A DNA stretch of 64,000 bases, taken from the NCBI GenBank assembly GCA_023663345.1, contig JAMPHR010000001.1:295364-359363 (forward strand), given 5' to 3'. Positions 6,891 to 26,437 of the stretch are shown here, piece by piece. A model generated the notes under the pieces. The model was not told the DNA's origin. It ran no database searches and was given only the letters and a program-made list of their open reading frames with translations. Positions within the stretch are counted from its first letter, which is position 1; each line of letters begins with the position of its first letter. Source of the DNA: Paenibacillus sp. (GTDB taxonomy: Bacteria > Bacteroidota > Bacteroidia > Bacteroidales > Muribaculaceae). Both the position numbers and the translations under genes were made by a program.

Positions 6891-7223
6891 AGCCATGGAT
6901 GAATCCACGTTCCCAATCATTCCACACACAATAAGCTATTGCCAAAACAACCCTTTTTTACCGCTCTGACAGTTATTGTACAATTAACATTTTGAAAGAT
7001 TCTGAATTGTCATTCCGCCTTTTTGGAGCATATTTTAGGGGTGAAATTTAGTCATCAGGGGTATTTTTAGGTCAATTATGACCTTGCGCAGTTTTTCACC
7101 CACGTTTGGGCTAAATTTCCGTTAACTCCGTTTTGGATATGTTTACATTTGCACCCACAGTGACTACATCACAAAAAGAGACTACAATCAAAATCTTTAC
7201 ATTTATTAATTAACCAAACAACC
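6891..7223 (+). promoter_or_regulatory. Control region of susC with AGGGGT boxes, inverted repeats and promoter
   Basis: This 333-base gap has no gene. It holds two direct AGGGGT boxes at 7037-7042 and 7057-7062 (offset 20), in the contexts TTTTAGGGGTGAAATTTAG and CATCAGGGGTATTTTTAG. There is a perfect inverted repeat AGGTCA-ATTA-TGACCT at 7069-7084. Nested arms GGGTGAAA (7039-7046)/TTTCACCC (7094-7101) and GAAATTTAG (7043-7051)/CTAAATTTC (7111-7119) surround it. A -7 element TACATTTG is at 7144-7151, 81 bases after the second AGGGGT; CACGTTTG at 7101-7108 is a weaker alternative. The arrangement suits an activator bound upstream of the susC promoter. The same AGGGGT motif recurs before PL11 and between the two GH2 genes. 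Confidence 0.6.
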
Positions 7224-10200
7224 ATGAACAACTGTCATAACAGTTCGGGATTAGCTGATATGTTTCGGCGGATCCTATTCCTTGCCCTGTTTGGCGTGCT
7301 TTCGATAGCAGCATCCGCACAAGGCAAGACAGTGTCCGGCACGGTGATTGACCAGACTGGTGAACCGATCGTCGGCGCAAGTGTGTTAGTCAAGGGTACC
7401 ACCTTAGGCGTGGCTACCGACGTTGACGGTAATTACTCTCTTACCAAAGTACCAGACAATGCTATCCTCGAGTTCCGCTACATCGGCTATGTATCTCAGG
7501 ATATCAAGGTGGACGGACGTTCGGAAATCAACGTTACTATGAAAGAGGACGTGGCCATGCTCGACGAGGTAGTGGTAGTGGGCTACGGTGTACAGAAGAA
7601 AAGCGACGTGACCGGTGCCATGACCACCCTCAGCGCCAAGGACCTCCAGACACGCCCCGTGAGCAACGCTTTCGAGGCCCTGCAGGGCAAAGCTGCCGGT
7701 GTGGACATCACCACCAACGAGCGTCCCGGTACCATCGGATCCATCAACATCCGCGGTCAGCGCTCACTCACAGCCTCAAGCTCTCCGCTATATGTAGTTG
7801 ACGGTGTGCCCTTGTTGTCGGCCTCGGCAATCGAAACCCTCAACCCCCGCGACATCGAGAGCATCGACATTCTCAAGGATGCCTCGGCAACAGCCATCTA
7901 TGGTTCACGCGGTGCCAACGGTGTCATCCTCGTCACTACCCGCAACGGTAAGTCAGGCCAGTTCTCGCTCAACTACTCAGGCTCAGTCACAACCTCCAAG
8001 ATTGTTGACCGTGCCAAATCCATGAGCGCGGCCGACTTTATCACCTTCAAGCGCTGGGCCGCCTACAACCTCGATCCCGAGAGCTACGCTCATCCCAATT
8101 CTCCCACCAAGGAGAGCGATACCCGTCTATTCGGATCTACACTCGACGGCAACACCTCTTTTGACAACGTGATGCGCGGTTGGGCCTCAGGCACATGGAA
8201 CCCCGCAGCCGTGATCGATACCGACTGGACCGATTTCGTAACTCAGACAGGCTTCACTCAGGAACACACACTCTCGGCATCAGGCGGTACCGAGCAGATG
8301 AATGCTTACGCTTCGTTCGGCTACCTCAGCAACGACGGTACTCAGAAAGGCCAGTGGTACAAGCGTTACACAGGCAAGGTCAGTGCAAATATCACTCCCG
8401 TCAAGTGGTTTGAGGTGCAGGCATCTATCAATGCCACCTGGTCAGAGCAGGATTATGGTATGTCAACCCTTGGCGCAACCAGCTCCACCGGTCGCCCCGA
8501 TGCCATCTACGACATGTCGAAATCGATCTTCAATCATGCAGTGCCCTACGATGCCGACGGCAACCGCGTGATAAATCCCGGTGGTGAAAACACTATCTTC
8601 TCAGTAATTGATGAGGAGAACCACTCCACACAGAAATCTCAGACATTCCGCGCCCTCGGATCATTCTCCGCCACACTCAAGATCGGCGAAATATGGGCAC
8701 CCCTCAAGGGTCTCAACTACAAGATCGCATTCGGTCCCGACTTCCGTCACTGGCGCGAAGGTGCATACATCGACGGCTACTCCGTCAACCGTGTGAACAA
8801 CGACGGCTCGGAAGGCACTAACTTCGCACGCCTGAAAAACCGCCGCGACTTCTCCTGGACTCTCGACAACATGATCACCTACAACAACACCTTCAATCAG
8901 AAGCACAACGTGGGTGTAACCCTCCTCCAGACCGCTTCCAAGTGGAACTATGAGGAAAGCGCCATGTCGGCCTACGGACTCGCCAAGGATTCTTACAAGT
9001 GGAATGCGTTCGGCACAGTCGACGTGACCAACAGCGACAGCAAGGCCGGTATGTCATCAGGCCTGCAGGACCGTCAGCTCGAGTCCTATATGGTACGACT
9101 CAACTATGGTTTTGACGACCGTTATCTTCTCACCGTATCCGGACGTTGGGACGGCGCATCCCAGCTGGCTAAGGGTCACAAGTGGGATTTCTTCCCCTCG
9201 GCCGCCCTTGCATGGCGTCTCAACAACGAAGCCTTCCTCCGCGACTTCGCCTGGATGAACAACCTTAAGCTCCGTCTCGGCGTAGGTACCACCGGCAACG
9301 CCGCTGTATCCCCCTACTCCACCCTCGGTGCCATCAACTCCTACTGGCTCCCCACCCCCAACGGCAACGAACAGATATGGGTGACCAATGAACCCTATTA
9401 TGTGAAGGACCTCACCGGTATGGCCAACAAGGATCTCGGCTGGGAAAAGACCACCCAGTGGAACCTCGGTATCGACTTCGGATTCCTCAACAACCGTCTG
9501 TCAGGTGGTATCGACCTCTACTGGTCCAAGACCAACGATCTGCTCATGAGCACTACCATCCCCTCACTTACCGGCTATAACACCACTCTCGCCAACGTAG
9601 GTAAGACCTCCAACCATGGTGTTGAAGTCACCATCAACGCTATCCCCGTGGACACCCGCGACTTCACCTGGAACACCAACTTCAACATGGCTTGGCAGAA
9701 GGACAAGATCGACGAGCTGGCATACGGCAAGAACGACATGAAGGACAATGCATGGTTCATCGGCGAGCAACTCGCTGTATACTACGGTTACAAGAACGAC
9801 GGTATATGGCAGAACACCCCCGAGGATCTCGCAGAGATGGCCAAGTGGAATGAGAACGGCTATACATTCACTCCCGGTAACGTTCGCCCCCACGATGTGG
9901 ACGGCGATTACAAGATGACCGATGAGGACCGCGTGGTTATCGGCAACCAGAACCCCAACTGGACCCTCGGCTGGAGCAACAGCTTCAACTACAAGGGCAT
10001 CGAGCTCGGCTTCCAGGTATTCGGACGTTTCGGTTACACATTCGACACCAAGGGTCAGCCCCTTACCGCTACCGCCAACCAGTATGATTTCGACTACTGG
10101 ACTCCCGATAATCCCGGTGCCACCTATCAGAAACCTATCCTTGCACAGGCCACAGCCGGATCCGGCGATCCCTACGCATCACTGTTAGGTTTCCAGAAGG

Positions 10201-10406
10201 CATCGTTCCTGAAGATGCGCAACATCTCTCTGGGCTACAACTTCCCCGAGCGTCTGCTCCAGAAAGCTACCATCAAGCATCTGAAGATATATGCCCAGGC
10301 CATCAACCCGTTCAGCATCTATCAGTCGATCGACGGTTTCGATCTTGACACCGGCAAGACCTACTATAACCGCAGCTTCTCGTTCGGCCTTGAAATCGGA
10401 TTCTAA
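7224..10406 (+). CDS. SusC/RagA family TonB-dependent outer-membrane transporter
   Basis: A 1060-residue outer-membrane beta-barrel that imports oligosaccharides using TonB energy. Order of parts: signal peptide ending near ASAQ (residue 33), a CarboxypepD_reg-like domain (VSGTVIDQTGEPIVGASV to about residue 110), the TonB box region DEVVVVGYG, a plug domain (GKAAGVDI ... IRGQRSLTASSSPLYVVDGV ... LKDASATAIYGSRGANGVILVTT), and a long barrel ending FSFGLEIGF with a terminal aromatic. There is no N-terminal STN domain, so it should not pair with an anti-sigma factor. It is followed 42 bases later by its SusD partner. The genes around it predict rhamnogalacturonan-I fragments as cargo. A second in-frame ATG at 7260 would also give a good signal peptide. 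Confidence 0.95.
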   Translation: MNNCHNSSGLADMFRRILFLALFGVLSIAASAQGKTVSGTVIDQTGEPIVGASVLVKGTTLGVATDVDGNYSLTKVPDNAILEFRYIGYVSQDIKVDGRSEINVTMKEDVAMLDEVVVVGYGVQKKSDVTGAMTTLSAKDLQTRPVSNAFEALQGKAAGVDITTNERPGTIGSINIRGQRSLTASSSPLYVVDGVPLLSASAIETLNPRDIESIDILKDASATAIYGSRGANGVILVTTRNGKSGQFSLNYSGSVTTSKIVDRAKSMSAADFITFKRWAAYNLDPESYAHPNSPTKESDTRLFGSTLDGNTSFDNVMRGWASGTWNPAAVIDTDWTDFVTQTGFTQEHTLSASGGTEQMNAYASFGYLSNDGTQKGQWYKRYTGKVSANITPVKWFEVQASINATWSEQDYGMSTLGATSSTGRPDAIYDMSKSIFNHAVPYDADGNRVINPGGENTIFSVIDEENHSTQKSQTFRALGSFSATLKIGEIWAPLKGLNYKIAFGPDFRHWREGAYIDGYSVNRVNNDGSEGTNFARLKNRRDFSWTLDNMITYNNTFNQKHNVGVTLLQTASKWNYEESAMSAYGLAKDSYKWNAFGTVDVTNSDSKAGMSSGLQDRQLESYMVRLNYGFDDRYLLTVSGRWDGASQLAKGHKWDFFPSAALAWRLNNEAFLRDFAWMNNLKLRLGVGTTGNAAVSPYSTLGAINSYWLPTPNGNEQIWVTNEPYYVKDLTGMANKDLGWEKTTQWNLGIDFGFLNNRLSGGIDLYWSKTNDLLMSTTIPSLTGYNTTLANVGKTSNHGVEVTINAIPVDTRDFTWNTNFNMAWQKDKIDELAYGKNDMKDNAWFIGEQLAVYYGYKNDGIWQNTPEDLAEMAKWNENGYTFTPGNVRPHDVDGDYKMTDEDRVVIGNQNPNWTLGWSNSFNYKGIELGFQVFGRFGYTFDTKGQPLTATANQYDFDYWTPDNPGATYQKPILAQATAGSGDPYASLLGFQKASFLKMRNISLGYNFPERLLQKATIKHLKIYAQAINPFSIYQSIDGFDLDTGKTYYNRSFSFGLEIGF

Positions 10407-10448
10407 GAGTCTGTCTAAAATATCAAAAAATTATCACGACATTAAGTT

Positions 10449-12590
10449 ATGAAACTACATAAATATATCGGTGGTGTTCTCGCTATCGGTCTCGCCCTCG
10501 GATCAGCATCCTGCAGCGAAGACTTCCTTGACGAGAATCTCGAGACCTCCTACAACACTCAGTACTTTGATACCCCCGAGGGTCTCGAAGCACTCACCCT
10601 GTCGCTCTACGGCAATATCCGCTGGCACTTCGGCTACGAATGGGCATTCGGCGTGACCCTCTACGGTGCCGACGAGTTCGATGTGGCCAACGACTACACC
10701 AACGAGACATGGAACACCTACGACAACCGCTTCAGCCCGCTCCATGCCACCACAGCCCTCGGTGCCGCCAATGGCAACTGTACCGCTCCCGGAGCTCTTT
10801 GGGATCAGCTCTATTTCGGTATCGCTTCCTGCAACACTATCCTGGAGAAAGCCGACGCCGTGTTCACCGATCCCGAGCATTGCCGTCGCGCCAAGGCCCA
10901 CGCTTATTTCCTGCGTGGCTACAACGAATACCGCCTTGCCGCCCAATACGGCACTTACGTAATTGTCACCGAACCTGTCAGCGGTGTTGTGCGCAACTTT
11001 GTACGCGCGTCTCAGGAAGAGGCATGGAACCAGTGTATCAACGACCTCCGCAGTGCCTACGAGAATTTCTCCGGAGAGAATTTCACCTATGGCAAAGGCA
11101 TGACATGGACCAAGGCCACTGCCGCCCACTTCCTTGCCAAAGCCCTGCTCTTCCGTGCTTCCGAGCGTAACAGCGCATGGAACGCATCGTATATCAACAA
11201 CGACCTCGAGGAGGCCATCAAAATGTGTGACTACGTTATCGGCGCCCGTTCTCTCGAGAGCAACTACTCGGATCTCTATGCCAACTGGACCGACATCGAC
11301 TGCGCTATCGAGACCTCCGACGAGATCCTCATGGCTGCCACCCACAACGGCGACACCTCCACTGCCGGCCGTTTCGGAAACCGTACCTACAACTACTTCA
11401 ACCCTCAGTTCTCGAACTTCTCAGGTGGTTGGGTAAAACGCGGTGTATGGATCGGCGGTATGGACTTCCAGCGTTGCCGTCCCACTGAATACACCTATGC
11501 CGTATTCGACCACAAGAACGATGCCCGCATGTGGAAGACATTCCGCACCGTATATGGCGCCAACAATGTTGCTGATGCTAATGCAGGTGTAGCAAAGGGT
11601 GACCCCGGTATCATATTCATCCTCAACACAAAGGATGACCACACCTATGACAACCAGACATTCGGTGCCGCTTCATCAAACGCACGTTCCCACAGCTCGT
11701 TCCGCGACGTGGACGGACGCCTCCCCGAGTGGGCGGTCGACAAGCGTCAGACTCCTACATCCGGCTCACTCGCCGGCAAGAAGGGTGCCGATGGCCAGTA
11801 TGTGCCCAACGCATGGATATGCTATCAGAACGGTAATTATGTAGGAAACAGCCTCGGCGTACCGGGCGGAACCACCTACAACACCACCGGTAATAACAAC
11901 AACATGTTCTGCGGTATCAACAAGACCGACGACGGCTCACGTCTTGCCGAGAAGGGTGATGCACACCGCGATATCACAATGGCCCGCGTAGGCGAGACCT
12001 ATCTTGTACGCGCCGAGTGCTATGCACGCCAGAAGAACTATTCCAAGGCTATGGAGGACATCAACGTGATACGTCGTCGCGCTCAGTGGAAGAACGGTGA
12101 AAACCGCTCCTACTACGTGGATGGATCTCAGGCATTCGAGAAGAACTCTCTTTATGACAAGAACAAAGAGATGTACGTCAACTCCAACCTCAACATGAAC
12201 ACCTACTACCTCTCCAACCCCGACATGGATGTGACCACAGCGGCTTCTGACCTCCAGCTCAAGTCATTCCCCAACAATCTTCCTGCCGAGGACGAGGCTG
12301 TAATGCAGAAACTCGGTGTGAGTGATGAGTATGACCGCGCTATCAACTTCATCCTCAACGAGCGCACCCGTGAGCTCCTCGGAGAATGGCAGCGTTGGGA
12401 GACTCTCTCCCGTACAGGCTGGCTCGTTAAACGCGCCAAGGCATTCAACGCCCAGGCGGCTCTCTACATCAAGGAGGGCAAACACGAGCTCCGTCCTATC
12501 CCGCAGGCTTTCATCGACGGACTTCTCCAGGAGAATGGTGACAACCTGACTACCGAGCAGAAGGCCTCATGGCAGAATCCAGGTTATTGA
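10449..12590 (+). CDS. SusD/RagB family surface glycan-binding lipoprotein
   Basis: A 713-residue lipoprotein that forms the lid on the adjacent SusC and binds glycan at the cell surface. The signal peptide ends in the lipobox SASC, with the lipid on Cys22, followed by SEDFLDE as is common in SusD proteins. The N-terminal TPR-like helical part (EGLEALTLSLYGNIR..., RRAKAHAYFLRGYNEYRLAAQYG near residues 150-170) and the C-terminal segment ERTRELLGEWQRWETLSRTG...LRPIPQAFID are hallmarks of the family. It is longer than typical SusD (500-650 aa), with extra loops between about residues 330 and 530 that may shape the ligand site. It is the second gene of a susCD operon and ends before a stem-loop shared with the convergent GH43 gene. 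Confidence 0.94.
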   Translation: MKLHKYIGGVLAIGLALGSASCSEDFLDENLETSYNTQYFDTPEGLEALTLSLYGNIRWHFGYEWAFGVTLYGADEFDVANDYTNETWNTYDNRFSPLHATTALGAANGNCTAPGALWDQLYFGIASCNTILEKADAVFTDPEHCRRAKAHAYFLRGYNEYRLAAQYGTYVIVTEPVSGVVRNFVRASQEEAWNQCINDLRSAYENFSGENFTYGKGMTWTKATAAHFLAKALLFRASERNSAWNASYINNDLEEAIKMCDYVIGARSLESNYSDLYANWTDIDCAIETSDEILMAATHNGDTSTAGRFGNRTYNYFNPQFSNFSGGWVKRGVWIGGMDFQRCRPTEYTYAVFDHKNDARMWKTFRTVYGANNVADANAGVAKGDPGIIFILNTKDDHTYDNQTFGAASSNARSHSSFRDVDGRLPEWAVDKRQTPTSGSLAGKKGADGQYVPNAWICYQNGNYVGNSLGVPGGTTYNTTGNNNNMFCGINKTDDGSRLAEKGDAHRDITMARVGETYLVRAECYARQKNYSKAMEDINVIRRRAQWKNGENRSYYVDGSQAFEKNSLYDKNKEMYVNSNLNMNTYYLSNPDMDVTTAASDLQLKSFPNNLPAEDEAVMQKLGVSDEYDRAINFILNERTRELLGEWQRWETLSRTGWLVKRAKAFNAQAALYIKEGKHELRPIPQAFIDGLLQENGDNLTTEQKASWQNPGY

Positions 12591-12736: not shown

Positions 12737-13798
12737 TTACTTATCCTGACGAGATTTGTTCATGGATTCTATACGGTCATATTCCTCCTTGGTGATACGC
12801 ATGAAGGATCCGTGCTGTGGAGCATCCACTCCCTTTATGTCGACCGGAGAATGGAAATTGCGCAGGTACTCGTCGGTCTGGCATATACGGTAGCGCTTGG
12901 GTTTGGAAGAGTATTCGATATATCCCACTCTCCAGCCATTTTCTCCGGGTATACGGAATGCCGATACCCCCTCACACTTCTTGTTGCCCTCGAAATCCAC
13001 ATAATCATCATCGACCGGCAGACTCCAGGGGCCGTGAAGCGCAGGAGCTGTCGAGGTGAACAATCCTGGCTTTCCACCCTCCTTCTTGATCATCATGTGA
13101 TAGAGACCGTCGCTCTCCAGATAATTGATATCCGCATCAATGGTGGCGTATCCCCAGTCGAAAAGCAACCGGGGCTTGGTGAGCGTTGTAAAGGACTCGT
13201 CGGCATAGGAATAATACATGCGGTCATACTCCTCTCCTGCCTCAGGATTCCACAGTGAGTAATATATCATATATCCTCCCTTACGGCCATCGGGCCACTC
13301 GTAATCGGGGTCCCAGAATATCTGCGGGGCCCACACCCTCACTATCGAGCTGTAATCAGTGTAAGGATCATGGCCCTCGGGGTCGGAAAATATGCCGGGT
13401 CCCTTGCGGAAATCAAATGTCACAGACTTCCAGTTCACGAGATCATCGCTCGTGAGCAGATTTATGCCGTAATTGTGCCATTTCTTGCTCCGCGCCACGC
13501 ACATATCGGTAGTGACCATCAGGTAGCCCGACCCGTCATACTTGCGGGTGATGTAGGCATCACGTGTGCCCCCCTCGATGAGGGCCTTATCCACCGGACT
13601 GAATATAGAGTCTCCCCCTATTATGTCATGATAGTTGAGTCCGTCACGGCTGAGAGCGTAAGCCGTCCACTCCCCTCGCCCGCTCATGTGGCAATAGAGG
13701 AAACCATATTCACCTTTCTCGTAGTTCTGGGCCATAGCCGACAAGCCTCCCGAGAGGGAAAGCATCGTGGCCAAAGCCATACGCATGTGTTTTTTCAT
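12737..13798 (-). CDS. Glycoside hydrolase family 43-like enzyme
   Basis: A 353-residue secreted five-bladed beta-propeller hydrolase. A signal peptide ends near AMAQ (residue 24). Family 43 active-site residues can be proposed: the general base Asp in GGTRDAYITRK (near residue 80), the pKa-setting Asp in ATIDADINYLE (near 219), and the general acid Glu in KKCEGVSAFRI (near 275). WAPQIFWDPDYEWPDG is also a GH43 hallmark (WAPxI). Family members act on arabinose, xylose or galactose side chains. In this PUL an arabinan or galactan side chain of rhamnogalacturonan I is most likely, but subfamily cannot be fixed by eye. It is last in the minus-strand PUL run, 165 bases after GH28, with its own possible -7 element TAATTTTG at 13834-13827. 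Confidence 0.85.
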   Translation of the reverse strand: MKKHMRMALATMLSLSGGLSAMAQNYEKGEYGFLYCHMSGRGEWTAYALSRDGLNYHDIIGGDSIFSPVDKALIEGGTRDAYITRKYDGSGYLMVTTDMCVARSKKWHNYGINLLTSDDLVNWKSVTFDFRKGPGIFSDPEGHDPYTDYSSIVRVWAPQIFWDPDYEWPDGRKGGYMIYYSLWNPEAGEEYDRMYYSYADESFTTLTKPRLLFDWGYATIDADINYLESDGLYHMMIKKEGGKPGLFTSTAPALHGPWSLPVDDDYVDFEGNKKCEGVSAFRIPGENGWRVGYIEYSSKPKRYRICQTDEYLRNFHSPVDIKGVDAPQHGSFMRITKEEYDRIESMNKSRQDK

Positions 13799-13826
13799 AA
13801 CTGGTGTAATAAAATTTGGTATATCA

Positions 13827-13834
13827 CAAAATTA
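13827..13834 (-). promoter_or_regulatory. Candidate -7 element before GH43
   Basis: TAATTTTG on the minus strand, about 30 bases before the GH43 start and downstream of the large hairpin at 13868-13911. It could restart transcription of GH43 if the hairpin stops or slows the upstream transcript. No convincing -33 was seen. Confidence 0.4.
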
Positions 13835-13867
13835 ATAAATTATCACGATATTACATTGAACGAAAGC

Positions 13868-13911
13868 CTCCGGCCAAAATCATTTTTCTGATGAAATGAT
13901 TTTGGCCGGAG
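13868..13911 (-). repeat. 18-bp perfect intergenic hairpin between GH28 and GH43
   Basis: CTCCGGCCAAAATCATTT (13868-13885) is the exact reverse complement of 13894-13911; the loop is 8 bases. It lies inside a run of co-directional PUL genes. On the minus strand no T run follows, so it looks more like an mRNA-processing or stabilising stem, or a partial terminator, than a standard one. Confidence 0.85.
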
Positions 13912-13963
13912 CGCCTGTAGTGTCACCTGAGTGCTTGTGAGGTCAATTGGCCCGACTATATGA

Positions 13964-15442
13964 TCACCGCATGGTGATATTCTCGCAATTGAATTGCACT
14001 ATCTGGTCAACACCCGGCTCGGTGGGAGCATCGATATTGCGGAGCGATGAATCCCTCACGTCGTCAAGCACCACAGCCGGGCGATATTCGGGATCGGCAT
14101 AAGTGAATGTGAGATCATCGGCATGTAATCCCACCACGTGGCGAGCATACAGACCGTATGCCGGAGTGTGGCCGGCAAACTTAGGCTCGGGATAATGGGT
14201 GGATTGCTCACGGTAATCCTTGTTGACAAGTTCACGGGCACCGCCTCCGCGGAAATGCAGGCGGATGTTGCTGAGCCATACGTTACGCACCGGCTCATCG
14301 GGTAGACCGGTGACTATGATCGAGCACAGCGAATCGCAATCATCTGCCACGACATTGGAGATCTGTATATCGCGGGCGCTCGACATGCGTGTCACCTCCT
14401 TAGGGCCACGGTTGCGGCAACCGGTAGTTATATATATGGGATAATGGTGGACGTGGCTCATGGTGATATTGGATACCACTATATTTTCCATCACGCCCTG
14501 ATCCACCTCCTCAAAGGCAAGACCGCTCGAGTACATGAACGTACAGTTGGACAGCGAGATGTTGCGGTACCCGCCGTTGGACTCGGTGCCGAGCTTGAAC
14601 CGTCCGCACACCCACCCTACCTTGGCAGGGACGTATGTGCCGTCGAGCAAGGTACCGCACTCATATCCGGTGACATTGCAGTTGGTCACGGCTATATGCT
14701 CGCACAGCACCGGTTTCTTAAGCGCATAGGAGCTCTTGAGAACGATGGCATCATCGCTCGGGGTATTGACCCGGCAATTTGATACCGACATGTATTTGCA
14801 GCAATCGATGTCGATGCCGTCGCGGTTGGTATCGATGGTGAGATTATCAATGGTCGACAGGTCGCATCCGGTCATTATCACGGCAAAATGTCCTCCACGA
14901 TACACGGTGAAATCCCTAAGGGTTACACGCCGGCACTGCTTGAGGGCTATGGACTTGTCACCGGTGCCGATGGATCCGCCCTGAACTATACCGGCATTCT
15001 CGGTGTCATGCTTGGTGAGTCCCTCGCCGTCGATCATGCCATGACCGGTGATGCTGACATTACTCTCCCCCACAGCCCATATCAGCGAGTTGTGGAAATA
15101 GGTGTGGCCTCCGTCCTGATACTCGGGAAAACCGCCGAACGACTCACTCTCGTCGTAAGCCTTCATCGAAGCCGGGGCCGCCTTGATGACACATCCGGGC
15201 GAGAGATGCAGGTCGATGTTGGATTTCAGGCGTATGCTTCCGCTCAGATAGGTACCCGAGGGGAGATAGACCTGCCCTCCGCCCTTGGCAACAGCCTCCT
15301 CTATAGCGGCGTTGATGGCCGGCGAATCGAGGGTCTCGCCGTCCCCTTTGGCCCCGAAATCCTTCACGTTGAACACATTAGTAGCCTGGACAGCAAAGCC
15401 CATCGACACGCAGGCGAGTACGCTTACAAGAGTCTTTATCAT
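13964..15442 (-). CDS. GH28 polygalacturonase-like / rhamnogalacturonan galacturonohydrolase
   Basis: A 492-residue secreted right-handed beta-helix enzyme with a signal peptide ending near VQATN. The pectin-lyase-fold start VFNVKDFGAKGDGETLDSPAINAAIEEA is typical. Catalytic carboxylates lie in NRDGIDIDCCKYMSV (first Asp pair, near residues 206-212) and PSDDAIVLKSS (Asp-Asp, near 226-230), the positions used by GH28 inverting hydrolases. The usual NTDG appears as NRDG, and the expected conserved histidine loop (GHG) is not obvious, which fits exo-acting or rhamnogalacturonan-specific members more than endo-polygalacturonase. It should remove galacturonate from backbone fragments made by PL11. 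It is 44 bases downstream of rhaM in the same run. Confidence 0.88.
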   Translation of the reverse strand: MIKTLVSVLACVSMGFAVQATNVFNVKDFGAKGDGETLDSPAINAAIEEAVAKGGGQVYLPSGTYLSGSIRLKSNIDLHLSPGCVIKAAPASMKAYDESESFGGFPEYQDGGHTYFHNSLIWAVGESNVSITGHGMIDGEGLTKHDTENAGIVQGGSIGTGDKSIALKQCRRVTLRDFTVYRGGHFAVIMTGCDLSTIDNLTIDTNRDGIDIDCCKYMSVSNCRVNTPSDDAIVLKSSYALKKPVLCEHIAVTNCNVTGYECGTLLDGTYVPAKVGWVCGRFKLGTESNGGYRNISLSNCTFMYSSGLAFEEVDQGVMENIVVSNITMSHVHHYPIYITTGCRNRGPKEVTRMSSARDIQISNVVADDCDSLCSIIVTGLPDEPVRNVWLSNIRLHFRGGGARELVNKDYREQSTHYPEPKFAGHTPAYGLYARHVVGLHADDLTFTYADPEYRPAVVLDDVRDSSLRNIDAPTEPGVDQIVQFNCENITMR

Positions 15443-15486
15443 CTGATATGATTATATGGTGATAGTGAGATTGTCGGACTGACTGA

Positions 15487-15804
15487 TCAGTCAAGATGCA
15501 TCACCTCCTTAATAGGCACAGTGACTGGAGAATTGTCGGGATTTACCTCCATAATGTCGGCCATATAGTCCCACCATCGATGGGTGATCTCATCGGCAGC
15601 CTCGGCATCCTGGGAGTTAGCGTCACCTGTCACCTCCTGATAGCCAAACAGGATATTGGTATCCCGATCCCAATATATGGAATAGTTACGCACACCCGAG
15701 TCGGCTATGCGCCGGCGGAGTTCGGGCCACAGAGCGGCATGTCGTTTTTCATATTCAGCCTCGCATCCGGGCTTGAGATACATTTTGAACGCAAATCTTT
15801 TCAT
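15487..15804 (-). CDS. rhaM: L-rhamnose mutarotase
   Basis: A 105-residue cytosolic enzyme that interconverts alpha and beta anomers of L-rhamnose, supplying the form used by rhamnose isomerase. It is normal length for the family. Key features are LKPGCEAEYEKRHAALWPELRRRI with the active-site His in RRH/KRH (residue 22), NYSIYWDRDTNILFGYQEV with the catalytic Tyr, and RWWDYMADIMEVNPDNSPV, the family C-terminal signature. Its place between CE12 and GH28 shows that the PUL releases L-rhamnose. The rest of the rhamnose pathway (isomerase, kinase, aldolase) is not in this window. Confidence 0.94.
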   Translation of the reverse strand: MKRFAFKMYLKPGCEAEYEKRHAALWPELRRRIADSGVRNYSIYWDRDTNILFGYQEVTGDANSQDAEAADEITHRWWDYMADIMEVNPDNSPVTVPIKEVMHLD

Positions 15805-15835
15805 AGAGAGATTATTGGTTTGATTATTATTAATT

Positions 15836-18652: not shown

Positions 18653-18690
18653 AATGAACTGATGTATTAAGAGTTGTAAGAATATAAATA

Positions 18691-20562
18691 TTAATCAACG
18701 TATGTGCCACGGAATTTCCGCCCCTTCAGATCAGGGCCGAAATAGAATCCCGGCTGGGTGGGCTGATTATAGCCCACATTCTGATTGGCTATGCTGTGAC
18801 GGTAGACCGGATCCTCCAGGAATGTGTGGAACCGGTACCGGGTGGGGATAGTCGAAACGTACAGACGCAGAGAGGAATTGTCAGATGTGCGCATCAGCAC
18901 CTCCTCGCGCCAATCGCCTATGATGTCGCCCTGAAGGCAAGGAGTGGCCTTGGTCCAGTTATTCCACGTGCACCCCTCGAATTTCATAAGCGGTTCGCAC
19001 CGGCCTGTAGCCGGATTGTATTTGCTCACCACATTCTTATCCAGAAGCTCACGCAACAGGTCGCCGTCCCACCACACGGCCATATTGACCGGAATCTGGG
19101 AGCGTGCCGGGCCTACAAAACCCATGGGCGGAGAGATCAACGTGCCGTCAAAGGCTCTCACTCCACCGGTATTGGGCGACCACACCTCCACTCCCGGATG
19201 TTCGGGATCGATATCAGCCGCCATGCACCGGCCTATGTCAAGATTGCTCGGGAACTGAAATATCACCTTACCCGTGGCTGCATCGCGCAGAGAAGTGCCA
19301 TCACGACGATTCTCGTGGCAACCCCATATATAGAAATTACGGTTGTCGGGGTCGGACAAAATGTGCATGGCATCACCATGATGCATACGGGTAGTGTACA
19401 GCCCAGAACCGTCATGGTCGACAGCCATCTGGCCATATATTATCTCATCACATCCGTCACCGTCCACATCAGCCACGCGCAAGTTGTGGTTGCCTTGTCC
19501 ACTGTAATCCTCAAGTCCGGGCTTGGCGGAATCAAAGACCCACCGCACCTCGAGATCCTTGCCATTCCAATCGTAGGCGGCCAGCACCGAACGGGTATAG
19601 TATCCACGGCAAAAGACAGCCGAAGGATGCACGCCATCGAGATAGGCTGTGGCAGCGAGATAACGTTCCGAGCGGTTGGCATAGGAGTCACCCCAATCCT
19701 TAAGCTCGCCCCGTGCAGGTATATATGGCACTGTAGCCATAGCCTCACCGGTAAGTCCCTTGAATACAGTAAGATACTCCGGCCCTGCGATAATGCGCCC
19801 ACGAATATTGCGGAAATCGGCGCGATAGTCGCCTATCATGCGCCGTGTACCATCGACAGTACCGTCGGCCGTCTTGCATATCAGCTCGGCACACCCGTCA
19901 CCGTCAAAATCAGCTACAAGAAACTGAGTATAGTGAGCGCCGGACCGGATGTTGCGACCAAGATCAATACGCCACAGACGGGTGCCGTCAAGACGGTAGC
20001 AATCAATGAGAGTAGGGCCTGTAAATCCGTCGTGGGCATTGTCATGGGCATTGGAAGGTTCCCATTTCAGAAAGATCTCATATTGTCCGTCACCGTCCAC
20101 ATCACCGATCGAAGCATCGTTAGGCTCATAGCTATATTCCTTTCCGAAAATATCAACATCCCCCCGGGGCACATCAAGGTCAATATTTAGATACCCAACA
20201 GGAGCATCGGCCGAAAGGTTAAAAACACCGGAATCTTTCTCCCCTTTCAGCGCCCTGACCTCGTAGACAGCCTCAACACCATCCTTGTGGCCATCCATGA
20301 AAAAAGTAGTACGGTCCAGCGGCTTTTTATTGATCCTTTTACCGTTACGATATACGTCAAACGTCTGATTACCTGGATCGGATGAAAGATAGCGCCATGA
20401 CAGCACCACTGAATCGGACGATGCTCGCACAGCTATCAACCCGCGGTCAAGCTTCTCCATTTTTATTCTGGAGTAATCGTATCTTGACTGAGCGAGCCCT
20501 GTCAATCCTGACAAGAATACTATTAAAAACGGCAATGCAATTCTAATGATTGTATGTTTCAT
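18691..20562 (-). CDS. Rhamnogalacturonan lyase, PL11 family
   Basis: A 623-residue secreted lyase that cuts the Rha-GalA bond of the rhamnogalacturonan-I backbone by beta-elimination. It resembles B. subtilis YesW/YesX. A signal peptide ends near GLAQS (25). An Fn3-like N-terminal module (VVLSWRYLSSDPGNQTFDVYRNG) is followed by an eight-bladed propeller with repeated calcium-binding DxDGDG blades: IGDVDGDGQYEIFLKW, VADFDGDGCAELICKTADG, RVADVDGDGCDEIIYG. Length and order fit complete PL11 enzymes. It is first in the run PL11-CE12-rhaM-GH28, with gaps of 31-44 bases, and is preceded by the palindromic AGGGGT operator at 20642-20669. It is the clearest indicator of PUL substrate. Confidence 0.95.
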   Translation of the reverse strand: MKHTIIRIALPFLIVFLSGLTGLAQSRYDYSRIKMEKLDRGLIAVRASSDSVVLSWRYLSSDPGNQTFDVYRNGKRINKKPLDRTTFFMDGHKDGVEAVYEVRALKGEKDSGVFNLSADAPVGYLNIDLDVPRGDVDIFGKEYSYEPNDASIGDVDGDGQYEIFLKWEPSNAHDNAHDGFTGPTLIDCYRLDGTRLWRIDLGRNIRSGAHYTQFLVADFDGDGCAELICKTADGTVDGTRRMIGDYRADFRNIRGRIIAGPEYLTVFKGLTGEAMATVPYIPARGELKDWGDSYANRSERYLAATAYLDGVHPSAVFCRGYYTRSVLAAYDWNGKDLEVRWVFDSAKPGLEDYSGQGNHNLRVADVDGDGCDEIIYGQMAVDHDGSGLYTTRMHHGDAMHILSDPDNRNFYIWGCHENRRDGTSLRDAATGKVIFQFPSNLDIGRCMAADIDPEHPGVEVWSPNTGGVRAFDGTLISPPMGFVGPARSQIPVNMAVWWDGDLLRELLDKNVVSKYNPATGRCEPLMKFEGCTWNNWTKATPCLQGDIIGDWREEVLMRTSDNSSLRLYVSTIPTRYRFHTFLEDPVYRHSIANQNVGYNQPTQPGFYFGPDLKGRKFRGTYVD

Positions 20563-20641
20563 AATTCATGGTTCAGATAGGAACATGCTGCAAAACAAAA
20601 TTGCAATAAAAGAATCAGATAACCGTGATTTTTCGTATTAA

Positions 20642-20669
20642 TTAGGGGTAATTATTGAATTACCCCTAA
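20642..20669 (-). promoter_or_regulatory. Palindromic AGGGGT operator upstream of PL11
   Basis: TTAGGGGTAATT (20642-20653) and AATTACCCCTAA (20658-20669) form a perfect 12-bp inverted repeat with a 4-base centre. It lies 80 bases before the PL11 start, after the regulator gene stop. No T run follows on the minus strand, so it is not a typical terminator, though it could fold as RNA. The half-site is shared with the susC and GH2 control regions, which favours a binding site. A weak -7 element CAATTTTG lies at 20603-20596. Confidence 0.6.
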
Positions 20670-20698
20670 ATATGATTAAAAAACACACCTTTGCGAGT

Positions 20699-23548
20699 TC
20701 ATTTTTCATCCGCTCCGGTTTCAGCCCTCATCCCGTTCTGATAATCGCGGGGACTTATTCCGATCTCTTTCTTGAAACTCGTGGTGAAATAACGGCGGTC
20801 ACCGTAGCCCACCATGTCAGCCACCTGGCTTATGGAATAATTCTTGCTTTCAAGCAACTTGCAGGCATGCTGCATCTTGATCTCAAGAATAAAGTCGAGA
20901 GGAGTCTTGCCGGTGATGCTCTTGATCTTGCGCGAGAACGTGGAGCGTGACATGTTTACTCCTCGTGCAAGGGCATTCACGTCAAAATCTGAATCATTGA
21001 GATTATCCTCCACCACTTTGGTAGCCTTTTCGAGAAGAATCCTGTCGAGTTTCTGGAATTCCTCCTCGGGCAAAGTAACGGGACTTGAGAGATATGAACG
21101 CATCTTGATCATCTCCTCGCTGTCGGCCCACAGTTCCTCGTTCTGCTTCTTGAGACGACGACGGTAAAGCACAAGGACATAGCCAACAGTCCCGAGCAGC
21201 AACAGGAAATATATTGTGAACGCCCACCAGGTCTCGTAGAAATGCGGCAACCAGCGTATCTCGAGCGTTGTAAGCTCATCACTCAGACGGTTGTACTCGT
21301 CGCATGTCCTTACCTCAAGTGTATAATTGCCACGGTTGAAGCCATTATACACGGCTATATTCTCGCCAAGTGCCGTGTAGCGCCATTCATTATCGAAACC
21401 CTTTATACGGTAGGCATACCTCAATTTTGAGGGATAACGATATCCGAGCGTCGAGAAATGAAACTCAATATTCCTGTCATCGGGAGCAAGAGTAAGCCGT
21501 CCGGCATCGTACATGCCGTCCTCGTCGCCGAAAACCCTCGACTCGCCCGAGACGGTAATGTCAGTTATCACAGTCCTGACAGAAGCCACATCCTCATCGA
21601 GAGCAGGATTGGGCGTGAATACGGCAATACCGCCCACGCCACCGACACCAAGGAATCCCTGACCGGCACGGCACGGAGTACGAGACAGCAGACGACCAAG
21701 ATTCATATCCCGCCCGGCATCATATACAAACCTCAGATTGTTGCGTGGATTGAATTCCACAATTTTGGAATCCGTAACTGCCCACACATGCCCATCATCG
21801 CTGACATGAATCTGCTTCACGCCCGACTGCCCCATTCCGGAACAACGGTCAGTGTGATCGGTAAACATGCGGTCGGCCGGATTATAGTCATAGACACGAC
21901 CATCATCGGTGCCTACCCATATCCTGCCATCGGGAGCGGCCGCCATTGCCGAATTCTTATTATGGAACAATACATCTTTAGATAACATATTGCATTTAAG
22001 CGATGATACATCAAACAGCCCCTGCTCCTTGGACAGACCATAGATACGACGATCAGCAGTCTCCACTATATCGGTGATGATACCGGCATAAGGATATGTG
22101 CCAACGAAGTCACGAAGATTAAGATCATAACAATACAATCCCTCAGTAGATCCAATCCACAGCCTCTCGCTGCTATCCTCGTACAGTTTGGTGATTTTGA
22201 CAGTCGGGGTTACGAAGGAAGAGATGGATACCGAATCGACCACCGACATGACCATATTGTTGTGAGAGATGGCAAACACCATGTTACTGCGTTCCTGCGA
22301 CACCCATACACCATTGCGCGACGGGGAGGAGCCCATCTCCTCAGCCATGCGGAGCCTCAGGATATCCATGGCAATATTATCATCGTGATAGGAAATGCGG
22401 TCGGTAGCGAGATCGTAGAGCAACAATCCGCTTCGGAACTGGAGCATCCACAGGAGATTGCGCCTATCGGCGGGCAACACCGAAGTGATCACCGGAGAGT
22501 TCTCGTATCTGCGTCGCACAGCCGGCAGACCGTAGTCCACCACATTATTGTCGAGATATATTACCGAGCTCGCCCTGTCCAGACAGCCGATCCATATAGC
22601 ACCCGGCGTAGAGATCACCGACATCATAGAAGCTCCGTTGAAGCGGTCGGCCATGGGGTGACATATAGAGGTGAGCTTCCCGTCGGGCTCGGGACGGAAT
22701 ATGAGAAGATGATTTCGACTTATACCCCACAGATAACCGTCATGATCATCCTGAGTGAAATCAAGCAGATTCTCGGTGCGATGGCTGTCCCAGTAATGTA
22801 TGGGACTCGCAACAAATACCGTGTCGGCATCAGGATCAAACCGATAGATCGAGGCCCTGAAATCAGTGACCCAGAAATGATCGTTTCTCCGGTCCTGAAC
22901 TATTTGGCCAAGGGGCACATCGGCCTCTATGGGTCTGTACATATCGAATTCATCCTTATCTCTCTCATACCGGTATATGCCACGGCTGTAGGAGGTCATA
23001 TAGATATCCCCGGTTCGGGACTGGCAAAAGCCACTGACATAGGTAGCCTTGCCCTTACGGTCGGTGATATTGTAATCCTTAATCCAATTTCCTATACGGT
23101 CGTAACGGCGGAGCTTGCCATACTGATTGATCCACACATCGCCGTCGGTGGTGACATGCAGAGAATTGACAGGACGTGAACCGATACGGATCTCATCAAA
23201 AGGCGAGATGCGGTAGTTACGCTTGTCAAGCGCCCATACCCCCTTGTCGGTAGCCACGAGTATACGGCCAATGCTGTCCTCGGCGATGCCGTTGATATTA
23301 TTGGCATTACCCGGATGAAAGATAGCCACATGATACCCGTCGTCGCGACACAGACCATTGGTGGTACCATACCACATGTATCCCTCGCTGTCACGGAATA
23401 TTCTCCTCAACCCTCGCTCGGGAAGCTGACTCATGGTGGGAATGACCGATACCGATGCATTGCTCGCGCCATCGGCCGGAGCCGACGCAAGCATACATAC
23501 AATAATCAGCAGGAATATGACTGCGGGAATTTTCACGCACATCTTCAT
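20699..23548 (-). CDS. Membrane sensor with propeller, Y_Y_Y and AraC DNA-binding domains (no kinase)
   Basis: A 949-residue transcription regulator that probably controls this PUL. Order of parts: signal peptide or first membrane helix (1-28), two stretches of Reg_prop propeller repeats from about 45 to 690 (for example DSEGYMWYGTTNGL, SSERLWIGSTEGLY, PDGRIWVGTDDGRV), a Y_Y_Y domain (LRYAYRIKGFDNEWRYT..., about 690-768), a transmembrane helix (about 775-794), a coiled linker, and an AraC-type double helix-turn-helix (about 840-937: DVNALARGVNMSRSTFSRKIKSITG, ISQVADMVGYGDRRYFTTSFKKEIGISP). Hybrid two-component systems have HisKA, HATPase and receiver domains between helix and AraC; here only about 45 residues separate them. 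The sensor should bind oligosaccharide in the periplasm while DNA is bound at the membrane. Confidence 0.92.
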   Translation of the reverse strand: MKMCVKIPAVIFLLIIVCMLASAPADGASNASVSVIPTMSQLPERGLRRIFRDSEGYMWYGTTNGLCRDDGYHVAIFHPGNANNINGIAEDSIGRILVATDKGVWALDKRNYRISPFDEIRIGSRPVNSLHVTTDGDVWINQYGKLRRYDRIGNWIKDYNITDRKGKATYVSGFCQSRTGDIYMTSYSRGIYRYERDKDEFDMYRPIEADVPLGQIVQDRRNDHFWVTDFRASIYRFDPDADTVFVASPIHYWDSHRTENLLDFTQDDHDGYLWGISRNHLLIFRPEPDGKLTSICHPMADRFNGASMMSVISTPGAIWIGCLDRASSVIYLDNNVVDYGLPAVRRRYENSPVITSVLPADRRNLLWMLQFRSGLLLYDLATDRISYHDDNIAMDILRLRMAEEMGSSPSRNGVWVSQERSNMVFAISHNNMVMSVVDSVSISSFVTPTVKITKLYEDSSERLWIGSTEGLYCYDLNLRDFVGTYPYAGIITDIVETADRRIYGLSKEQGLFDVSSLKCNMLSKDVLFHNKNSAMAAAPDGRIWVGTDDGRVYDYNPADRMFTDHTDRCSGMGQSGVKQIHVSDDGHVWAVTDSKIVEFNPRNNLRFVYDAGRDMNLGRLLSRTPCRAGQGFLGVGGVGGIAVFTPNPALDEDVASVRTVITDITVSGESRVFGDEDGMYDAGRLTLAPDDRNIEFHFSTLGYRYPSKLRYAYRIKGFDNEWRYTALGENIAVYNGFNRGNYTLEVRTCDEYNRLSDELTTLEIRWLPHFYETWWAFTIYFLLLLGTVGYVLVLYRRRLKKQNEELWADSEEMIKMRSYLSSPVTLPEEEFQKLDRILLEKATKVVEDNLNDSDFDVNALARGVNMSRSTFSRKIKSITGKTPLDFILEIKMQHACKLLESKNYSISQVADMVGYGDRRYFTTSFKKEIGISPRDYQNGMRAETGADEK

Positions 23549-23560
23549 CTCGTAATGTCC

Positions 23561-23616: not shown

Positions 23617-23620
23617 ATTT

Positions 23621-26044
23621 TCAGATAGTGGTCATTTTCAGTTTAATCTCCTTGCCGCCCTCGGGAATGACTGTGAGTGTCACCGGACCGCTCTCGCGGG
23701 TGGAGCGGAGTATAACGGATGCCTGGCCATTGAACAGGCGACGGCTATCGCCGATGGTGAGTTCATCGCTGGTAATGTTACCGTTAATAACTCCTACAAT
23801 TTCGGCGGGACCGTCGACCTTGAACACCAGCGGAGTCTCGGAGCCGGGCACTATACGTGACTTGCTGTCGACAGCCTCAATGCTCACATGCTGCAGATCC
23901 ATGCCATCGGCTTTCCAAGAGGAATTGTCGGGAGTGGCCCTGAGACGCGACACTTTTCCGGTGGTCTCGATGCGATGGCGTGCTACCGGAGCTTTCTCCC
24001 CGTCACGATAGGCCACTGCCTCAAGCGCTCCGGCCTTGTAAGGGATACTTTCCCAATATATCCTGTTGCGCTTCTTAGGATCGGACACCTCATTGCGCTT
24101 GCGGGCTATGGTCTTACCGTTGAGACGTAGCTCCACCTCATCGGCGTTGGTATAGGTATAGAGATCCACCGAGCTACCGGGGAGGCGGTTCCAATGGTCG
24201 GACATGCGCTTGGTGCCCACCTTCACATCGTTCCACACGGTGTTGACATCGCTGTCGATGATACCGATATGAACCACCGGCTCCTCGGGCTTGAATATGC
24301 TTCGCAGGAACCATGCTATGGGCTTGGGACGTAAAGATATGTCAAATATGCCTTCGTTCCAACCCTTTGCGGGCCATCCGTGAGACTCCCCGAGGTAATC
24401 GATCATGCCCCAGTAGGCAAGACCTATCACCTTGTCAAGATTCATTTCAAAGAAATTAGGTCCCATACCGGAGGTGTTGGCCTCGCTCTGATAGAACATC
24501 ATCCACGGGAAACGACGGCTATCGCCGGGGAAGTACATGTAACGGTAGTTGTAAGCGGCGATATCGGTCTCCATAACCAGCGGTGCGGGGAGGGAATCGG
24601 TGGTCTGATGACGGCCACGGGGGTGCATGGCTACTGTGACAGGACGCGTGGTATCGAAACGGTCGAGCAGGGCTTTCTGCATCTTATAGGGAGTGACGCC
24701 CCAATCGGCATAAGGAAGCTCCCACAGGAGCTGCAGTTCGTTACCGAGGCTCCACATTATCACCGAGGGGTGGTTGCGATCACGTTTCACCCATTCGGGC
24801 ACATCCTTGGGCCATTGCTCCATCCAGTCCTTGCGGCCACCTGCATACTGAGTGAGCCACTTGTCATACAACTCATCGACCACGAGGATTCCGTAGCGGT
24901 CGCACAGTTGCATAAACTCCTTACTGTAGGGATTATGAGAAGTGCGGATGTGGTTGAAACCGAAATCCTTGAGCATCTTGATACGCTTCTCGATCGCCGC
25001 CGGGTAGGCTGCGGCACCGAGCGCTCCGAGTGTATGGTGATTGGCTATGCCCTTCAACAGAGTCTTACGGCCATTGAGCTTGAATCCAAACTCGGGCGAA
25101 TACTCTATGGAACGTATTCCGAACTGATCCTCCACGCGGTCGATCACCTCACCGTCGGACGACAGCAGGGACATTTCCACCGTGTAGAGATGAGGATTGT
25201 CGCAATCCCACAGACGCGGAGACTTGATCTCGAGGCTGTCGACGGTGTACTCCCTGATTTTCTGCTTGCGGTTGAAAGGGAGATCGAGGGTGCGGTCATA
25301 CACCTCGTTGCCATCGGCATCAGTGATGCGGGCCCGTACCTTTATAGTCTTGGCCTTATGCTTGAGGGCCGCTATCTCGGCCTGGAGTTTCACTGTGGCC
25401 ACATCGTCAGAGACATAGGGCGTGGTAATATACAACGGATGACGGGGGAAATAGGTGTCATGATCAGTAACCACTACATCGACATTGCGGTAAAGTCCAC
25501 CACCGGTGTACCATCGCGAATTTTCAGGTTTACCCGTATCTGCCCTCACGGCCAGAATATTGGGGCCGTCGTAATTCAGCATATCGGTAACATCAATCTC
25601 AAAACCGAGATAACCGTAATCGGTGCCTCCGATAGCGTGCCCGTTAAGAAATACATCGCCATTGAGCATTATTCCACCAAAATCAAGCAGGACACGCCGC
25701 CCTTTCCATGAGGGATCGGCAGTGAGTTGACGGCGATACCAGCCGGCACCCATCTCCTTGAATCCACGCGAACTGAGGCGAGACTTCACATTGGCCACGG
25801 GGTTATCGCTATCGGCAGTCTCGCCAGCCTCGGGGGCGACCCAAGGTTGTGAGATCTGAAAGTCGTGAGGTAGATTGACCTGTAGCCATGCGGAATCATC
25901 GTAAGCCGGATCCCAGGCCTCGTCGTTATCTCCGTAAGAGAATCGCCAACCGAAATTTAAATTCTCCACATCCCGATCGGCCGCACTGACAATTATGGGC
26001 AACGCTAATGTCAGGATCAATGTTGCAAGAAATTTCTTGATCAT
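23621..26044 (-). CDS. Glycoside hydrolase family 2 (beta-galactosidase-like)
   Basis: An 807-residue secreted exo-hydrolase; signal peptide ends near VSAAD (22). Order: GH2 sugar-binding domain (NFGWRFSYGD ... WYRRQLTADPSWKGRRVLLDFGGIMLNGDVFLNG), immunoglobulin-like domain, TIM barrel with HIRTSHNPYSKEFMQLCDRYGILVVDELYDKW, then C-terminal sandwich domains of the DUF4982 and GH2-C type. The acid/base Glu is in MWSLGNELQ (near 436) and the nucleophile Glu is probably in YQSEANTSG (near 525). Family and motif pattern fit beta-galactosidase, consistent with galactan side chains of rhamnogalacturonan I; beta-glucuronidase is possible. It begins from the divergent control region at 26045-26437 and is followed 72 bases later by the regulator gene. 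Confidence 0.9.
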   Translation of the reverse strand: MIKKFLATLILTLALPIIVSAADRDVENLNFGWRFSYGDNDEAWDPAYDDSAWLQVNLPHDFQISQPWVAPEAGETADSDNPVANVKSRLSSRGFKEMGAGWYRRQLTADPSWKGRRVLLDFGGIMLNGDVFLNGHAIGGTDYGYLGFEIDVTDMLNYDGPNILAVRADTGKPENSRWYTGGGLYRNVDVVVTDHDTYFPRHPLYITTPYVSDDVATVKLQAEIAALKHKAKTIKVRARITDADGNEVYDRTLDLPFNRKQKIREYTVDSLEIKSPRLWDCDNPHLYTVEMSLLSSDGEVIDRVEDQFGIRSIEYSPEFGFKLNGRKTLLKGIANHHTLGALGAAAYPAAIEKRIKMLKDFGFNHIRTSHNPYSKEFMQLCDRYGILVVDELYDKWLTQYAGGRKDWMEQWPKDVPEWVKRDRNHPSVIMWSLGNELQLLWELPYADWGVTPYKMQKALLDRFDTTRPVTVAMHPRGRHQTTDSLPAPLVMETDIAAYNYRYMYFPGDSRRFPWMMFYQSEANTSGMGPNFFEMNLDKVIGLAYWGMIDYLGESHGWPAKGWNEGIFDISLRPKPIAWFLRSIFKPEEPVVHIGIIDSDVNTVWNDVKVGTKRMSDHWNRLPGSSVDLYTYTNADEVELRLNGKTIARKRNEVSDPKKRNRIYWESIPYKAGALEAVAYRDGEKAPVARHRIETTGKVSRLRATPDNSSWKADGMDLQHVSIEAVDSKSRIVPGSETPLVFKVDGPAEIVGVINGNITSDELTIGDSRRLFNGQASVILRSTRESGPVTLTVIPEGGKEIKLKMTTI

Positions 26045-26437
26045 GGTAAGAAATAAAAAAGGTATAACAAAGTTACTAAAATAGGAATGAATACCAAATA
26101 AAATCGGACAAACATGACCATTTTAACGTATGTCATCGCTATTTTCGACTATATTGCAAAATTACGACAATGCTCAACGGCATCGGTGCAATATCACTCC
26201 AAACATGGGGCAATATCGCGCAAAATCATACCTTTGACTCAATTTTACCCCTATATGAGATAAATTTTTCTCCATCAAACAGAGGTATTAGCCAACTTTG
26301 CATAAAACATGAGAACGGGATTTTTTCTCAATCATCCCTTAATAACGTTGATTAAAATCTGATCAAGACCACATCACGATGAAACCCCGACAGACTCTCG
26401 GGGTGACTCAAAAAAAATATAAAAAACTGATCACAAA
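26045..26437. promoter_or_regulatory. Divergent control region between two GH2 genes
   Basis: This 393-base gap has no gene I can support. It holds an ACCCCT box at 26247-26252 (TATAGGGGTAAAATTG on the minus strand), matching the PUL motif. Two GCAATATC direct repeats at 26188-26195 and 26210-26217 are 22 bases apart, the spacing expected for an AraC-type dimer. For the minus-strand GH2, a -7 TAATTTTG is at 26164-26157, 82 bases after the AGGGGT box. For the plus-strand GH2, TACCTTTG at 26229-26236 and CAACTTTG at 26293-26300 are candidates. A short stem ACCCCGA/TCGGGGT (26384-26404) lies in the plus-strand leader. Confidence 0.55.

Follow-up and report, generated by a model that had tools for sequence, protein, structure and literature searches.

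AGGGGT boxes with constant spacing to the -7 element in a predicted rhamnogalacturonan-type locus, and a kinase-less relative of hybrid two-component systems as their probable binder

The window (64,000 nucleotides of contig JAMPHR010000001.1, assembly GCA_023663345.1, positions 295,364 to 359,363 of the forward strand) contained a polysaccharide utilization locus (PUL) with a G-rich box in its control regions and with its own regulator gene, encoding a protein related to hybrid two-component systems (HTCS). The genes of the locus were as follows:

7224..12590, + strand: susC and susD (Pfam)
12737..20562, - strand: PL11, GDSL esterase, GH28, and GH43-like genes, all on one strand with PL11 first (Pfam)
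20699..23548, - strand: the regulator, with Reg_prop propeller, Y_Y_Y, putative membrane helix, and C-terminal HTH_18
23621..26044, - strand: GH2a, 72 bp upstream of the regulator and on the same strand
26438..31835, + strand: GH2b and GH115 (Pfam)

PL11 is a rhamnogalacturonan lyase, two GH2 genes were also present (Pfam), and this gene content is that of a predicted rhamnogalacturonan-type pectin locus. The GH43 match was weak, lying under the Pfam cut-off. Gene order suggested that PL11, GDSL esterase, GH28, and the GH43-like gene form one operon, while GH2a and the regulator gene are probably a single operon. In the orthologous locus of genome G139 (L071 10390-13081), the next open reading frames (ORFs) resembled, by eye, rhamnose isomerase and rhamnulokinase, and these would accord with rhamnogalacturonan as the substrate.

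The first-pass annotation of the window had noticed AGGGGT boxes in the control regions of susC, PL11, and GH2, and these were found where it had placed them, at 7037(+), 7057(+), 20644(+)/20667(-), and 26252(-), with a palindrome before PL11 that was indeed perfect. Its consensus, TWAGGGGTRAWTT, had 0 exact matches on both strands of the window and was rejected; comparison of the sites gave an asymmetric box of ~18 bp, AGGGGTRAAWTTnnnTCA. The motif was real, with its length and consensus corrected to ~18 bp; its TCA element, the weaker partners of the strong boxes, and the plus-strand GH2 promoter had been missed. Boxes were assigned to two direct positions (D1 and D2, read in gene direction) and one inverted position (I), and distances were taken from the first base of the box (A1) to the start of the -7 element (consensus TAnnTTTG, as given in the available part of PMC7366714), unless counted from the box end:

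7037..7054, + strand: susC box D2, AGGGGTGAAATTTAGTCA, exact 18-mer; A1 to -7, 107
7057..7074, + strand: susC box D1, AGGGGTATTTTTAGGTCA, 2 mismatches, 20 bp after D2; A1 to -7, 87
7085..7102, - strand: susC inverted box I, TGGGTGAAAAACTGCGCA, weak; A1 to -7, 42
7144..7151, + strand: susC -7 element, TACATTTG
20596..20603, - strand: putative PL11 -7 element, CAATTTTG, one letter off TAnnTTTG
20644..20661, + strand: PL11 inverted box I, one palindrome half; A1 to -7, 41
20650..20667, - strand: other palindrome half, in direct orientation; A1 to -7, 64
20673..20690, - strand: PL11 box D1, AGGTGTGTTTTTTAATCA, diverged; A1 to -7, 87
26157..26164, - strand: GH2a -7 element, TAATTTTG
26184..26201, + strand: GH2b box D2, diverged and weak in the matrix scan, first copy of a direct repeat with 22-bp spacing
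26206..26223, + strand: GH2b box D1, diverged, doubling as GH2a box I
26235..26252, - strand: GH2a box D1, AGGGGTAAAATTGAGTCA, exact 18-mer, doubling as GH2b box I
26257..26274, - strand: GH2a box D2, TGGAGAAAAATTTATCTC, diverged; A1 to -7, 110
26293..26300, + strand: putative GH2b -7 element, CAACTTTG, one letter off

The susC I box taken alone had a per-position p of ~3e-3. The palindrome before PL11 (12+4+12, at 20642-20669) would provide the PL11 I box, provided that the putative CAATTTTG is the -7 element. The GH2a/GH2b intergenic region displayed a symmetric four-box operator, two boxes facing two, and its plus-strand pair was independently detected as a direct repeat at 26185/26207 with 22-bp spacing.

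The direct boxes lay 87-89 (D1) and 107-111 (D2) before the -7 element, and the inverted box at 41-43; D1-D2 offsets were 20-24 bp at susC, GH2a, GH2b, and several orthologs, and the first bases of D1 and I were separated by 45-47 bp. Counted from the box end, the distances were 80 and 81 in the window, 80, 82, and 82 in G002, 83 in G139, and 91 in G185; the spacings of 81 and 82 reported at first pass were thereby reproduced within one base (80 and 81, from the 7-mer end). It had also been remarked that half-site orientation differs between sites; this was mostly incorrect, as the boxes at 80-83 read in gene direction in 6/6 promoters with that spacing and the opposite-strand copies formed a second class with a fixed position of their own. 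The idea of a second, variably spaced box after GH2a and GH43 was abandoned when the -7-anchored scan showed fixed positions.

The positions were examined with a matrix built from nine direct boxes of six promoters, the tested promoter being left out each time, on 10 promoters anchored on the -7 element; the initial training set had contained one inverted box, and the scan was hence rerun with none. On the gene strand, the best peak fell at 87-89 (D1), and a second peak at 108-110 (D2) reached 25.5, above the 99% level of null maxima (23.0) and below the highest null (30.4); on the opposite strand, the best peak fell at 41-43 (I). The best peak of either strand was matched by 0/2000 random anchor shifts, and both persisted when only promoters with an exact TAnnTTTG were used (n=7; 0/1000 shifts each). 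Among five promoters whose own or shared boxes had not been trained on (window GH2b, window PL11, G002 GH51, G241, and G059), four with a -7 element one letter off consensus, the I peak was reached by 0/1000 shifts and the direct peak by 7/1000. Free of any matrix, GGG occurred 85-88 before the -7 element in 13/15 promoters (mean 0.92 per positional window) and CCC 43-46 before it in 11/15 (mean 0.66), each count being reached by 0/5000 shifts. This count is supportive, not independent: G605 susC, G002 GH30, and G185 PL11 joined the set once boxes were known in them, boxes are shared within two divergent pairs, and the GGG through which G185 GH2a was counted is not that of its strong box.

In 1.34 Mb of DNA, in which some loci overlapped, 1,698 [TC]AnnTTTG contexts were scanned and ranked by the sum of D1 and I. 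The best 13 rows lay entirely in loci of this regulator family; these rows were 10 distinct promoters, six of which had supplied training boxes. The 22 rows listed contained no GH2a locus from the 27 that lack a linked regulator (see below). The promoters that fitted wholly or partly without having been trained on were window PL11, window GH2b, G002 GH51, G241 susC, G059, G605 susC, G185 PL11, and G002 GH30.

The same data bear on whether the inverted box belongs to the operator. The motifs predicted for HTCS are direct repeats (available part of PMC3878776), and the I box was weak in several promoters and poor at G139 GH2a and G002 GH43, as would be expected if the regulator's site were the D2-D1 direct repeat only, as in an ordinary HTCS, with I being a second factor's site or a remnant. 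Three findings oppose this: (i) the matrix trained purely on direct boxes recovered the I position, so that I resembles D1 and D2; (ii) both boxes of G002 GH2a matched the 18-mer, with 0 and 1 mismatch; and (iii) a single box filled both roles in divergent regions, as in G002, where one box served as GH43 D1 and GH51 I. We consider a direct-repeat-only site unlikely, if still a serious candidate.

The regulator matched Reg_prop repeats, the Y_Y_Y sensor, and a C-terminal AraC-type helix-turn-helix (HTH) domain, HTH_18, in Pfam, and had no HisKA, HATPase_c, or Response_reg match (E <= 0.001); by eye, it displayed a signal-like N terminus and, between Y_Y_Y and HTH, one hydrophobic stretch followed by RRR. 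Kinase and receiver domains were likewise absent (E <= 0.1) from 7/7 scanned relatives of 950-1012 residues (G002, G139, G241, G150, G605, G576, and G473). The G059 protein (1320 aa) contained HisKA, HATPase_c, and Response_reg and was thus a true HTCS; it was 32% identical to the regulator over the sensor half (residues 15-819) and 55% over the HTH part (residues 824-938), its kinase and receiver being situated between the two aligned parts. The regulator is, on this sequence evidence, an HTCS relative without kinase and receiver. Just past the G059 gene lay a direct repeat, CAGGGTCTCTTTTTGTTCA / TAGGGGTCACGTTTTGTTCA, 109 and 88 from the -7-like TTACTTTG.

Loci with kinase-less proteins of 949-1012 residues were as follows:

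20699-23548 of the window: the regulator
L003, L055, L056, L057, L061, L062, and L066: its counterparts in other loci

Such propeller/Y_Y_Y/HTH_18 proteins of 949-1012 residues lacking kinase and receiver matches were observed in at least two families of the order. A close-relative search of genome contigs returned 11 loci, the best being a 24% identical Tannerellaceae protein, and strict-threshold regulator searches (positive in 2/27 genomes of the window genus, 1/8 of the G139 genus, and 1/49 of the G241 genus) gave no new locus.

The identities of the regulator relatives were 54% in G002, 53% in G139, 46% in G241, 33% in G150, and 32% in G185, and the box layout was present, wholly or partly, in six other genomes. 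WWGGGGTRA had 25 matches in 10 loci; five lay outside ORFs of >=100 aa, and all five were in promoters of regulator-linked loci, namely G002 GH43/GH51, G002 GH2a (two), G139 GH2a, and G185 GH2a, while a sixth, before G002 susC, overlapped the 3' end of the regulator frame. Partial layouts were as follows: I and D2 were present and D1 was weak at both G002 GH51 and G241 susC; G605 susC, first recognised through the D1 plus I scan, had D2 at 109 (TCA at positions 16-18) and D1 at 88, with an inverted box scoring at 42 and its most D1-like inverted partner at 53, one turn away; and G185 PL11, with D1/D2 at 87/109 from TTACTTTG, fitted by D1/D2 only. Upstream of the latter gene (L157 5000-5330), a longer inverted repeat, AATGCTCCAAATTTA ... 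TAAATTTGGAGCATT, overlapped the D2 box. G002 GH30, adjoining GH2a (L033 5701, minus), showed a weak D1 (88-89) and I (42) and may belong to the regulon.

Matches to GH2a were found in 51/257 genomes, and the loci of the best 30 were examined. The 500 bp upstream of GH2a contained a box read in gene direction in 3/3 loci with a linked regulator (G000, which is the window's genome, G002, and G139) and a box on either strand in 0/27 without one (the upstream stretch of G209 being shorter); the latter included G241 and G062, each with a regulator relative elsewhere, and five of the 27 had a bare AGGGGT upstream. With G185 (box) and G150 (no box), which were checked separately, the GH2a box was present in 4/5 linked versus 0/27 unlinked loci, these related genomes not being independent samples.

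The 18-mer, counted with <=2 mismatches, had 22 matches in G000 (2.64 Mb), and the only two without mismatch were the susC and GH2a sites; among the 19 two-mismatch matches, one was susC D1, one lay in an ORF, and the other 17 were divided into 14 within ORFs of >=190 aa and three noncoding. In G002, the sole exact and the sole one-mismatch match were the two boxes before GH2a. Three sites were taken as chance: (i) the single one-mismatch match of G000, located within an ORF; (ii) an exact match that fell in a peptidase-like ORF of G185; and (iii) one of the three noncoding two-mismatch sites of G000, with a -7 element at 108, whose next ORFs resembled ybeY and mnmG/gidA by eye. Among the outcomes that the first-pass annotation had named as refuting its proposal were equal frequency upstream of unrelated genes and absence from orthologous PULs; both checks were run, and neither refuted it.

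These results also bear on the identity of the binder. The boxes might serve a kinase-bearing HTCS or another factor encoded elsewhere in the genome, with the local AraC-type protein acting on something else: 15 proteins of the window genome matched the regulator at E <= 0.001, and box-promoter geometry by itself names no binder. This is nevertheless improbable, as the GH2a box tracked the linked regulator (4/5 vs 0/27), the exact 18-mer was restricted to this locus within the genome, and box and geometry recurred beside the true HTCS of G059, which has a related HTH domain.

The palindrome at 20642-20669 folded as a strong RNA hairpin (z = -4.0). It could on that account be a 3'-terminal RNA element of the regulator transcript instead of an operator, and this we regard as very improbable: the hairpin had no terminator-like T run, one half stood at the PL11 I position with the D1 box 46 bp away, and G185 PL11 carried D1/D2 at 87/109 with a different inverted repeat.

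The shorter 9-mer, WAGGGGTRA, had four matches in the window, every one within the locus. It was dropped as a genome-wide signal, being unenriched and matching mostly in ORFs (39 of 47 classified non-locus matches, 48 in total, inside ORFs of >=130 aa). With a position weight matrix from two other species only, the locus control regions held 4/5 of the best noncoding window matches. That the boxes are merely G-rich stretches of AT-rich DNA alike by chance, as the unenriched 9-mer, a high-scoring non-locus site at 37790, and the bare AGGGGT upstream of 5/27 unlinked GH2a genes might suggest, is hardly credible given the position peaks, the cross-species recurrence, and the matrix-free count.

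The boxes are thus probably the operator of the local kinase-less HTCS relative (20699-23548), which would activate the locus through them; conservation of the layout in orthologous loci, the GH2a co-occurrence, and the recurrence of the layout next to a true HTCS of similar HTH argue for the local regulator as the binder. The earlier proposal of one activator, with the AraC-type protein of the locus as its candidate, is supported by these three lines; its picture of a plain AraC protein was given up for that of a kinase-less HTCS relative.

Several observations weigh against this assignment. (i) As to the geometry, one-letter-off -7 elements were picked with boxes known in 3/10 promoters of the first test and 4/12 of a later one; the promoters are non-independent because boxes are shared in divergent regions; and a geometry search blind to sequence found no excess among 830 -7 contexts. 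(ii) As to the genome, WAGGGGTRA was not enriched genome-wide (52 matches vs 99 for the reversed control), no convincing distant target of the box was found in the genome, and the noncoding non-locus site at 37790 (minus), GGAGGGGTAAATTGTACTGG, ranked second in the window with the held-out two-species matrix; it was not among the 22 promoter layouts listed in the -7-anchored scan. (iii) As to other species, three tested G150 promoters (regulator 33% identical) did not fit the layout, nor did the G185 gene divergent from GH2a; the G185 regulator promoter could not be anchored on a -7 element; the strong box of G185 GH2a lay at 98, about one helical turn off; a good I box was lacking at G139 GH2a and G002 GH43, and D2 at G002 GH2a and GH43; and the G059 contig, past its repeat, ended ahead of the next gene. 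PL11 had no boxes of its own in G002 and G139, and target genes therefore vary between species.

In the mechanism proposed for the kinase-less regulator, the sensor would respond to a rhamnogalacturonan-type fragment, and the signal would pass across the membrane to the HTH domain with no phosphotransfer; HTH domains would occupy the direct repeat formed by D2 and D1, in the manner proposed for HTCS, plus the facing I box, and would activate RNA polymerase from about -60 and -90. As two direct-repeat pairs (four boxes) face each other between GH2a and GH2b, one bound complex could serve both promoters there; and the circuit would be one of positive feedback, because GH2a and the regulator gene are probably one operon.

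More tentatively, and as a possibility that we would not yet favour, an HTCS lineage that has lost kinase and receiver might work in one-component fashion, as an activator tethered to the membrane. It would bind two direct-repeat pairs that face each other (up to four boxes over ~90-110 bp, with D1 and I first bases 45-47 bp apart) and form a higher-order complex fixed in a single position ahead of the promoter, one complex driving both promoters in divergent regions. One true HTCS (G059) carries the layout, and the layout would hence predate the loss of the kinase; some HTCS operators may then include an I box that has been overlooked.

A literature search of partial coverage found no description of kinase-less HTCS in titles or abstract openings and no paper joining HTCS, inverted repeat, Bacteroides, and polysaccharide utilization, and the available parts of PMC10766802 and PMC12125979 held nothing on this operator. 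The glycans that gut Bacteroidales consume are determined by HTCS and their relatives, many of which have no known operator. The operator proposed here is concrete, with a box, a spacing, and a promoter anchor, and is tied to kinase-less members of the family; it predicts signalling without phosphotransfer, and its fixed spacing could aid regulon prediction in related uncultured genomes.

The regulator and its boxes were compared with three known systems. Classical AraC-type one-component activators contain HTH_18 with two HTH motifs and bind direct-repeat sites near promoters. The present system shares HTH_18 and such sites with them, but it has a large propeller sensor plus a putative membrane helix and not a small cytoplasmic sugar-binding domain. 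SusR is a membrane regulator with a periplasmic sensor and a cytoplasmic DNA-binding domain and no kinase; its DNA-binding domain is described as resembling no other known one, and repeats spaced by 67 or 77 bp are predicted for it (available part of PMC3878776). The design of a membrane regulator without a kinase would be shared with SusR, the membrane helix being putative here. The present regulator differs in its AraC-type HTH_18, and its repeats are 20-24 bp apart, not 67 or 77 bp.

HTCS of Bacteroides PULs (e.g., HTCS_Rgu-1 BT4111/BT4124) share with the present regulator the propeller plus Y_Y_Y sensor, the C-terminal HTH_18, and a pectin-type locus. HTCS motifs, predicted for 16/36 HTCS, are direct repeats whose sites are on average 21 bp apart, which suggests that dimers bind one face of the DNA (available part of PMC3878776), and this offset of about two helical turns is matched by the 20-24 bp observed here; the extra inverted box and the strict distance to the -7 element are features of the present operator that are unmentioned for HTCS in that part of the source. 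The regulator differs further in lacking HisKA, HATPase_c, and receiver domains. The HTH domain of HTCS is kept in check by the receiver as long as the latter is unphosphorylated (available part of PMC11253607), an inhibition that cannot apply here because the regulator has no receiver. BT4236, an HTCS without the phosphorylated histidine that is named as probably phosphorylation-independent (available part of PMC11253607), is a partial precedent for signalling without phosphorylation.

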